From IMG/VR virus record IMGVR_UViG_3300036770_001869, positions 1 to 25,496 of that record: 25,496 bases of DNA; one strand, written 5' to 3'. Of this stretch, positions 24,015 through 25,073 are shown piece after piece (the first letter of the stretch is position 1; the number at the start of each line of letters is the position of its first letter). This DNA is from a virus. The notes below the pieces were generated by a model, which searched no databases, was not told the origin of the DNA, and worked only from the letters and a program-made list of their open reading frames with translations. A program made the translations under genes and the position numbers.

Positions 24015-24039
24015 GGGTGCAACCATTGCAGCTGCACCC
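24015..24039 (-). other. Hairpin after tRNA-like element 1
   Basis: Perfect 7-bp stem GGGTGCA/TGCACCC with loop GCTGCAATGGT on the minus strand, followed by TATTTTGG. The loop is nearly identical to the loop of the hairpin at 24292-24316 (GCTGCAATAGT) although the stems differ completely. It may end the tRNA-like transcript weakly or mark a processing site. Confidence 0.65.
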
Positions 24040-24065: not shown

Positions 24066-24158
24066 GCTGAGGCGCGGGAATCGAACCCGCTTTGCCTGCT
24101 TCTGTTTACTGTCGGACCCCGCGAGCATCCTAACAAGCAAAGAATCCAGTCACCTCAA
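24066..24158 (-). tRNA. tRNA-like element 1, unusual structure
   Basis: A canonical T-arm is present: GCGGG-TTCGATT-CCCGC (24090-24074 on the minus strand). An acceptor stem can be formed by TTGAGGT (24158-24152) with GCCTCAG (24073-24067), 7 bp including two G-U pairs. Between them there is no normal D-arm or 7-base anticodon loop. Instead TTTGCTTG pairs with CAGGCAAA (8 bp) flush against the T-stem, enclosing about 35 bases. This plan, acceptor, unpaired D-like segment (GACTGGATT), long helix, T-arm, is that of the tRNA-like domain of tmRNA, but the total of 93 bases is far too short for a tag-encoding tmRNA. No anticodon can be assigned, and CCA is not encoded. It may be a degenerate tRNA, a tRNA fragment at an attachment site, or a tRNA mimic. 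Confidence 0.5.
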
Positions 24159-24159
24159 A

Positions 24160-24187
24160 TGGCCTTTTTGCTGCACCGGGTAGGCCA
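24160..24187 (-). other. Spacer hairpin between tRNA-like elements
   Basis: A 6-bp stem TGGCCT/AGGCCA with a 16-base loop containing GGTGCAGC. It fills the 40-base space between the 3' end of element 2 and the 5' end of element 1 and may guide their separation. There is no T-tract of useful length. Confidence 0.4.
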
Positions 24188-24198
24188 ACCCTAGTACG

Positions 24199-24282
24199 TC
24201 AAAGGCGCTGGAATCGAACCAACCAGCGGGTTGAAAAATACTTCTCAGTGTGAGAGATAAACCGCTGAACCGTTACCCTGAT
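24199..24282 (-). tRNA. tRNA-like element 2, unusual structure
   Basis: T-arm GTTGG-TTCGATT-CCAGC (24223-24207, with one G-U pair) followed by GCCTTTG and an A in the discriminator position. The 5' part TCAGGG (24281-24276) can pair with the acceptor strand with one bulge. A D-loop-like stretch (GGTTCAGCGGTTTA) is present but no D-stem forms well. CAGCGG pairs with CCGCTG (24267-24262 with 24229-24224) directly beside the T-stem, enclosing a small TCTCA-CAC-TGAGA hairpin. The layout thus repeats that of element 1. A Val-like loop CTCACAC can be read only with a mismatched stem, so I assign no anticodon. It is either a degraded tRNA or the same class of tRNA-like RNA as element 1. Confidence 0.45.
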
Positions 24283-24286
24283 ATTT

Positions 24287-24316
24287 AAAAACTAGGCAAC
24301 TATTGCAGCTGCCTAG
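24287..24316 (-). terminator. Hairpin with T5 before tRNA-like element 2
   Basis: Perfect 7-bp stem CTAGGCA/TGCCTAG (24292-24298 with 24310-24316), loop GCTGCAATAGT, followed on the minus strand by T5 (24291-24287). It meets the definition of an intrinsic terminator, although G/C content of the stem is moderate. It lies only 5 bases before element 2, which then needs another promoter or is released by processing. Confidence 0.65.
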
Positions 24317-24334: not shown

Positions 24335-24428
24335 GTTATCGGTTATTGTTCCAGCGCTCTTTTGCGCTGCTTTGTGTGTGTGCTGCTTTTGTGAGCCGGG
24401 CGACTGTTGCAGCAGCCCGGCCGATAAC
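24335..24428 (-). ncRNA. Candidate three-way-junction structured RNA
   Basis: Three helices nest in 94 bases. P1 is GTTATCGG/CCGATAAC (24335-24342 with 24421-24428, 8 bp). Inside it, P2 is CCGGGC/GCCCGG (24396-24401 with 24415-24420) with a loop holding GCTGCAACAGT, and P3 is CAGCGC/GCGCTG (24352-24357 with 24364-24369) with a 6-base A-rich loop. P1 and P2 abut and can stack coaxially. The element starts 15 bases after the stop at 24443. Function is unknown; it could be a cleavage-stabilised 3' UTR, a regulatory RNA or a decoy. Helices are seen directly, the fold as a whole is a hypothesis. Confidence 0.45.
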
Positions 24429-24442
24429 CACTTTACCACTTT

Positions 24443-24634
24443 TTAACGTTGTCTATACATCACTACTTGCTGTGCTATACCAATCGGTCCTACCTCCTCT
24501 ATCGCTCCCTGCTCTACTAGCTTGCAAAAATGCTGCTCAGCCTGCACCATTGTCTTCCTCTCTTTTGTTGTACTGTTCTCGGCAATCCACCTGCGGCAAA
24601 ACTCCGTTCGTGTAAACCGCTTACTTGTTTCCAT
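24443..24634 (-). CDS. Small basic protein, possible winged-helix
   Basis: A 63-residue protein overlapping the end of the endolysin gene by 14 bases. The N-terminal half is basic (SKRFTRTEFCRRWIAENSTT), the second half is QAEQHFCKLVEQGAIEEVGP, with the hydrophobic spacing of a helix followed by a wing-like beta turn. Small DNA-binding proteins with such a 'L.E.G.I' end are common in phages, but no motif is decisive. It is the last gene before the noncoding locus. Confidence 0.55.
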   Translation of the reverse strand: METSKRFTRTEFCRRWIAENSTTKERKTMVQAEQHFCKLVEQGAIEEVGPIGIAQQVVMYRQR

Positions 24635-25073
24635 ATCGCACAGGTATAAATACTGTTTGGCCGTTCCTTTTTATAGCTCTTAGTGCCTGCTTACGGTTGT
24701 TGCCTTTGTTAAAGCTGATATGTATCCAGGTATCAAACTCTTGAATACATTGGTCAAACTCTATGCCAAGAGCCAATATAAACCTGAATAGCTGCTCAGT
24801 TTTTATGCCCTTAACCTGTATGTCGGCTGCCTGTCCTTGCAAGTGCTGACTAGTACGACTGCCTCCAACCGCTTTGTTAAGAAGGTTAGATCGATAACCA
24901 GAGGTTACCATAACAGGTCTACCAGCAGCATCCCTAATAGGATCTAGTACATAAATACATAGATCTGTCAAGTTTTCTATCTGGGCGTCATTCGGAACGT
25001 TTAGAATATTCCGTAACTCAGCCGTTCGGCTGCGCGTCATTTCATCTAAGGTAAAATACTTACTCAGTTTCAT
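24621..25073 (-). CDS. M15 family peptidase, probable endolysin
   Basis: A 150-residue protein matching the M15A D-Ala-D-Ala carboxypeptidase-like family, typically 120-160 residues. It has an early YFTLDEMTRSRTA segment, the conserved SGYRS (58-62), the zinc-binding SxHxxGxAxD box SQHLQGQAAD (His77, Asp84), and the WIHIS motif with the third ligand His118. These enzymes cut peptide cross-links of peptidoglycan with a zinc ion. No signal peptide is present, so release needs a holin, likely the one at 1160-1585. A possible TACATTTG box lies at 25078-25085, but too near the ATG to be a convincing promoter. Confidence 0.9.
   Translation of the reverse strand: MKLSKYFTLDEMTRSRTAELRNILNVPNDAQIENLTDLCIYVLDPIRDAAGRPVMVTSGYRSNLLNKAVGGSRTSQHLQGQAADIQVKGIKTEQLFRFILALGIEFDQCIQEFDTWIHISFNKGNNRKQALRAIKRNGQTVFIPVRYGNK

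Follow-up and report, generated by a model that had tools for sequence, protein, structure and literature searches.

Several kinds of RNA reuse part of the tRNA fold. The closest in plan to the elements described here is the tRNA-like domain of transfer-messenger RNA (tmRNA; Rfam RF00023), which combines an acceptor stem, a T-arm and a D-loop-like linker without a D-stem, and in which a helix, P2, replaces the anticodon arm. Bacterial Y RNAs (YrlA) are noncoding RNAs with a tRNA-like module, engineers use tRNA scaffolds to make stable RNAs, and phage genomes can hold ordinary tRNAs as well as tRNA 3' sequences at attachment sites. Here, we describe two tRNA-like elements, A and B, in the viral record IMGVR_UViG_3300036770_001869 (positions 1 to 25,496; this whole stretch of 25,496 nucleotides is called the window), together with their relatives in other viral contigs. 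The two elements lie head to tail on the minus strand, to which all positions in the window refer, at 24200-24281 (A, 82 nt) and 24067-24158 (B, 92 nt). Comparison suggests, at about even chances, that they are phage genes whose products are small, stable RNAs built on a tRNA scaffold and processed by the host, with a hairpin as the working part.

Element A has neither a D-stem nor an anticodon arm. According to the helix table, its acceptor strands, TCAGGGT (24275-24281) and GCCTTTG (24200-24206, with no CCA after it in the sequence), form six of seven pairs, the sole non-pair being C-U at 2-71. The linker AACGGTT (24268-24274) stands in the place of the D-loop and contains GG, and the T-arm reads GTTGG TTCGATT CCAGC (24207-24223). 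The P2 helix, CAGCGG (24262-24267) with CCGCTG (24224-24229), makes 6/6 pairs and abuts the T-stem directly. Between its strands lie 32 nt (24230-24261), the payload core, which in alignments A1-A3 comprises an inner hairpin and the invariant AGUAUUUUUC. The search model R1 gives element A 86 bits, a score for a copy that belongs to its own training set. Two other roles for the core were considered. Coding is unlikely: although some of the copies can be read as similar peptides, even close ones differ by 1-nt indels (CAC, CACC, CAAC) and by stops. An antisense action on the phage itself was rejected, as the minus strand of the window holds no 9-nt complement of the core where about 2.3 would be expected; the sequence GAAAAATAC has two occurrences in L047 and one in L049, and is absent from L002, L003, L005 and L120.

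Element B repeats this plan. Its acceptor stem makes 7/7 pairs, with U-G at either end, and its T-arm is GCGGG TTCGATT CCCGC (24074-24090; helix table). The P2 strands, TTTGCTTG (24134-24141) and CAGGCAAA (24091-24098; folding and helix table), form 8/8 pairs directly adjoining the T-stem and are 35 nt apart. A preliminary description of this DNA, in which B was the first element and A the second, had proposed two tRNA-like elements with canonical T-arms and plausible acceptor stems, no D-stem or clear anticodon loop, and an extended helix against the T-stem. All of these features are borne out: both T-stems are complete, the GG linker stands without a D-stem and P2 occupies the place of the anticodon arm. 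The motif that it had read in the D-loop place of B is also there, the linker being GACTGGATTC (24142-24151; sequence and Rfam tmRNA alignment), in which the Rfam tmRNA model aligns CUGGAUUC.

Standard tools do not recover these elements as known genes. ARAGORN found no tRNA or tmRNA gene in the window or in a further set of 13 loci, and its two matches in 33 loci (L003 3357-3429 and L010 3425-3499) lie elsewhere than the elements; the ordinary cloverleaf with an anticodon, which the preliminary description had named as evidence against it, was thus not found there. Rfam at its gathering score reported no family in the window, and below the cut-offs tmRNA matched B with 21.2 bits (E 1.2e-6; gathering score 47), with no tmRNA match listed for A. 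No Y RNA is among the three Rfam matches listed at E up to 10, and a Ro/TROVE gene was found in none of 10 records, all of them fragments. By chance such arms are rare: a single strand of the window bears two complete T-arms, both of which have an acceptor partner with 6/7 pairs or more. In 200 dinucleotide shuffles, T-arms averaged 0.105 over both strands together (0.07 when a partner was required), and 1/200 had two on the same strand. Folding energy alone is weak (z of -1.97 for B and -1.15 for A), so that the case for structure rests on conservation and compensation.

Relatives were found by TerL-based and pattern-based scans of viral contigs. Element A is present in 12 viral records including the window, which form three lineages: lineage 1 (the window, L002 and L003; TerL 98%), lineage 2, whose members were assigned by their TerL or their flanking DNA (L036, L037, L038, L043, L049, L052, where the 5' end of the copy is cut off, and L054), and lineage 3 (L045 and L047), whose contigs end before any terminase could be read. 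The core is near letter-for-letter constant in lineages 1 and 2, and lineage 3 keeps its AGUAUUUUUC part. The large terminases of the window (phrog_38) and of L049 (phrog_9) belong to different PHROG families; in both records the RNA precedes the terminase genes, on their strand, by no more than about 1.5 kb, and in L047 an HNH gene follows the RNA at about 0.6 kb. A query with the L049 terminase returned only copies at least 96% identical. Pattern matches in viral contigs gave 20 stretches, 11 of which are element A and nine are not, and none of 63 stretches from genome contigs was judged to be A from the 62 nt upstream. Over these 72 non-A loci R1 had one match, off the pattern and coding-like by eye (L041, 20.9 bits, E 0.051). 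Some pattern matches are ordinary genes (tRNA-Leu in L056, tmRNA in L060 and L098), that in L119 looks like a chance match in coding DNA, and patterns for the L045-type core and for the second element of lineage 3 (type C, below) brought no new lineage.

Among the copies of A, changes in the helices tend to be matched on the opposite strand. RNAalifold, applied to an unguided MAFFT alignment of 10 type A sequences (A1), returned 22 pairs, six of them changed on both sides, in the acceptor stem, P2 and the T-stem. A hand-made helix table of eight sequences including lineage 3, which was laid out with the structure in mind and omits P2, has both-side changes in 7/16 pairs. Between L036 and L047, 11 of the 16 compared pairs differ; 10 remain standard pairs and seven are altered on both sides. 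For lineages 1 and 2 (eight sequences), 97.0% of cells are paired, versus 35-45% when the partner is slid by one to three columns, and their covariation score was reached by 0/500 shuffles. Altered pairs remain paired in 3/4 cases for type B, 2/2 for type C and 5/6 for type D (below). L003 has two tandem copies, in each of which a 5' portion from A is apparently fused to the T-arm and 3' acceptor strand of B, and in which the acceptor pair 3-70 is G-C and not the A-U of the other lineage 1 and 2 copies. Overall, the structure of A looks to be under selection; helix breaks without compensation, which would have spoken against the preliminary description, occur in places, and most of the variation is compensatory.

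The plan is found with other contents as well. The second element of L045 and L047 (type C) has CACTACT/AGTAGTG and a P2 of 8 pairs, and L004 and L005 have an element with a P2 of 8 pairs and the loop TTTGAAAGC (type D). That further elements in related phages share the plan bears out the earlier argument that its repetition speaks against random decay. The linker GG is present in all 16 tabulated elements; the T-stem has 5/5 pairs in 14 of them and 4/5 in two, the acceptor stem seven pairs in 11, six in three and five in two, and an encoded CCA follows none. In the records of 12 relatives, 17/18 matches to the T-arm motif fall on tRNA-like elements (an extra one in L004 included) and one in a coding stretch, and the reversed motif had one match; three motif matches in a thirteenth record, L119, stand outside this count. 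These elements share with ordinary phage tRNAs a T-arm with a TTCRANN loop, the acceptor stem and the phage-genome setting, but have no D-stem or 7-nt anticodon loop. A role as amino acid carrier is disfavoured, because the acceptor pairs and the base after the stem vary between types. In L004 and L005 an A-like core (TTATATTTCTAACCATGG..GTATTTTTC) stands on a plain long hairpin, the outer stem and P2 stacked, without a T-arm. The inner hairpin, rather than tRNA mimicry, may therefore be the longest-kept part; the preliminary idea of a new type of tRNA mimic is supported overall, although mimicry is perhaps not its essence.

The reading put forward above rests on what comparison of sequences provides, namely structure, compensation, spread and position, and from it we infer transcription, processing and the action and target of the payload. 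A and B would be part of a transcript extending from the lysis gene into the packaging genes. As the scaffold, the RNAs would use a tRNA's upper half (acceptor stem, T-arm and the GG of the D-loop-like linker), and a helix stacked beneath the T-arm would carry the hairpin payload. The 5' end would be cut by host RNase P and the 3' end made by RNase Z or exonucleases together with the CCA enzyme, and these host tRNA-processing enzymes would protect the RNA ends. The payload, with its invariant part in A, would act in trans, most likely through binding to a protein or RNA. More widely, and with slightly less than even confidence, we propose a class of modular host-processed half-tRNA scaffolds with interchangeable hairpin payloads, placed upstream of packaging genes in tailed phages with unrelated terminases, in which one payload has outlived its scaffold. 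No description of such RNAs was found in the titles and abstract openings searched, which leave most subscription journals outside their coverage. If this is true, it would be a natural phage version of the engineered scaffolds and a new route to small RNAs via host tRNA enzymes, and a family missed by ARAGORN and by the Rfam cut-offs; the conserved payload would be a specific bait for its partner.

A number of observations weigh against this reading. In lineages 1 and 2 alone, only two pairs have both-side changes, which 45/500 shuffles reach. Pairs are broken in A at 2-71 in 3/8 rows, at 1-72 in one, and at T-stem pair 49-65 in L045 and L047; one P3 pair is broken in L043 and L049, L002 has a broken end pair in its type B element, and type D of L004 has one more broken acceptor pair than that of L005. 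The inner hairpin of A drawn by RNAalifold (GAGAA/UUUUC, one-sided changes only) differs from the hand drawing (UCUC/GAGA, termed P3, one both-side change). In L004 and L005 the T-arm of A is absent, so that the tRNA part is dispensable in these two. Element B has a single homolog, in L002, and its R1 score of 29.3 bits points to a plan shared with A and not to descent, because R1 is unspecific on T-arm sequences and gives ordinary tRNA-Leu genes 20-28 bits as well. Built without L004 and L005, R1 gave 17.9 bits in L004, 19.8 in L005, 27.2 in L045 and 17.6 in L047, with E values of 0.015, 0.0061, 8.4e-5 and 0.025, respectively, per record, and 0.18, 0.055, 0.00068 and 0.2 in a joint search, where L047, L004 and L005 are thus weak. 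Moreover, all copies come from metagenomic viral contigs. Against 50,697 phage records, blastn of the regions returned, among the matches listed (20 of 28 in a first search and 10 of 17 in a second), fragments of at most 11% of the query with E of at least 0.3, and zero matches in a third search; in the first search many listed fragments were Mycobacterium phage stretches of 35-36 nt at the T-arm end of B. In 395 sampled genomes, under stricter filters, no type A element was found: three of the six places picked out by R1 are tRNA-Leu according to ARAGORN, and the others (L142, L144 and L145), judged by eye, do not belong to type A.

The main rival is transcript punctuation, as known for tRNAs in mitochondria: cleavage of the tRNA-like folds by RNase P and RNase Z would split the lysis mRNA from the packaging mRNA, the payload being filler. 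Similar position and orientation upstream of packaging genes despite different terminase families would suit it, as would the varying contents of P2 among types A, B, C and D. However, filler would not explain a core near-constant in lineages 1 and 2, partly kept in lineage 3 and recurring in similar form without a T-arm, and the flanking stem-loops could themselves end transcripts; we consider punctuation unlikely. A different purpose would be that of decoys, which would protect the phage or slow the host by binding defence nucleases that cut tRNA, enzymes that modify tRNA, or the translation machinery. Enzymes that read the tRNA elbow see the T-loop, the acceptor and the GG linker, all present here, and several genomes have two tRNA-like elements, with a tandem duplication in L003. 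Yet anticodon nucleases would have no anticodon loop to cut, the identity of the acceptor is not conserved, and the PADLOC models match 2/7 neighbouring window proteins, both methyltransferase-like (one with mad2 as best match) and none tRNA-directed; decoys are distinctly unlikely.

It is improbable, too, that the elements are decaying tRNAs or tRNA pieces kept as attachment sites, although relatives with about 61% TerL identity do suggest such a history: L007 (~2173), L009 (~474) and L010 (~288) have an apparent tRNA-Gly 3' part, probably an attachment site, with an integrase in the record of L007 and none found in that of L010. Likewise, the extra element of L004 looks like a tRNA-Leu that lacks the anticodon arm, and may be a decaying tRNA. 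A and B differ from attachment-site fragments in retaining both acceptor strands, which largely compensate each other's changes, whereas an attachment site needs one end only; compensation has thus already weakened this alternative. The PF00589 integrase was found in 0/10 element-bearing records searched, all fragments, and in 1/13 records overall, again fragments (G016, which has no R1 match). The last alternative is that the elements are reduced tmRNAs, still active in ribosome rescue or competing with tmRNA for SmpB. This would account for the shared domain plan, the tmRNA motif in the linker of B and the Rfam E value of that element. However, in the sole homolog of B, in L002, the linker is TACTGGAGA and the motif is not retained. 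The review PMC3985003 reports G3-U70 to be completely conserved in tmRNA; here the third acceptor pair is G-U in 1/16 elements (A of L045), the others having A-U, G-C or C-G, and between the P2 strands the tag-coding part is absent. For these two reasons the elements are, as far as sequence can tell, not tmRNAs, from which they also differ in a total length of 82-92 nt and a score under the gathering cut-off; a reduced tmRNA is highly improbable. The tmRNA-type domain plan without a coding part, claimed in the preliminary description, holds as a likeness of plan and not as membership of the tmRNA family.

Some further tRNA-like stretches and database matches were noted on the way. In L011, at about 1640-1773 and upstream of the terminase gene, lies a longer relative with an acceptor stem, a D-arm-like hairpin and a long helix replacing the anticodon arm. 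L145 (G132) has at 1501-1611 a tRNA-like stretch of 111 nt with a 7-pair acceptor stem, a T-arm and an encoded CCA, without a recognisable cloverleaf or an ARAGORN call. A T-arm-like stretch that follows AGTATTTTTC is near-identical in four viral contigs (L044, L046, L050 and L055), where there was neither an ARAGORN tRNA nor an R1 match. The two ARAGORN calls in L003 and L010 (tRNA-Gly and tRNA-???) are alike in sequence, that of L010 lies inside an open frame, and both look like false calls. Three sub-threshold Rfam matches were set aside: PK-SPCSV (16.9 bits, over stem-loop H2, described below, and the start of A), permuted tmRNA (13.3 bits) and, in L136, tRNA-Sec (28.2 bits, under its gathering score of 47).

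Regarding the surroundings in the window, the flanking lysis and packaging genes share one reading direction with both elements. On the 5' side lie an M15 endolysin-type gene (24621-25073) and, between it and the elements, a 63-aa frame (24443-24634). On the 3' side follow, from 23911 down to 21568, a ParB-like gene, a DUF5681 gene, which is likely the small terminase, and the large terminase gene. Our guess, from the appearance of the gene starts, is a host among the Bacteroidota. Of 12 elements folded (from about 19 copies), 11 have a stable stem-loop whose end lies 2-14 nt upstream, the exception being the type B element of L002; a stem-loop of such energy and position occurs in 719/11566 background windows (6.2%), the cut-off having been set after the values were seen and the 12 rows being related, with five to six independent units. 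In the window, H2 (24292-24316; stem CTAGGCA/TGCCTAG) lies 10 nt before element A, H1 (24396-24420) further upstream and H3 (24015-24039) downstream of B. The loop GCTGCAAYAGT is common to all three and to two stem-loops of L005 (5431-5463 and 5562-5592), on stems that differ and with T-runs after some of them; these phages may conserve it as a terminator or as a loop to which a protein binds.
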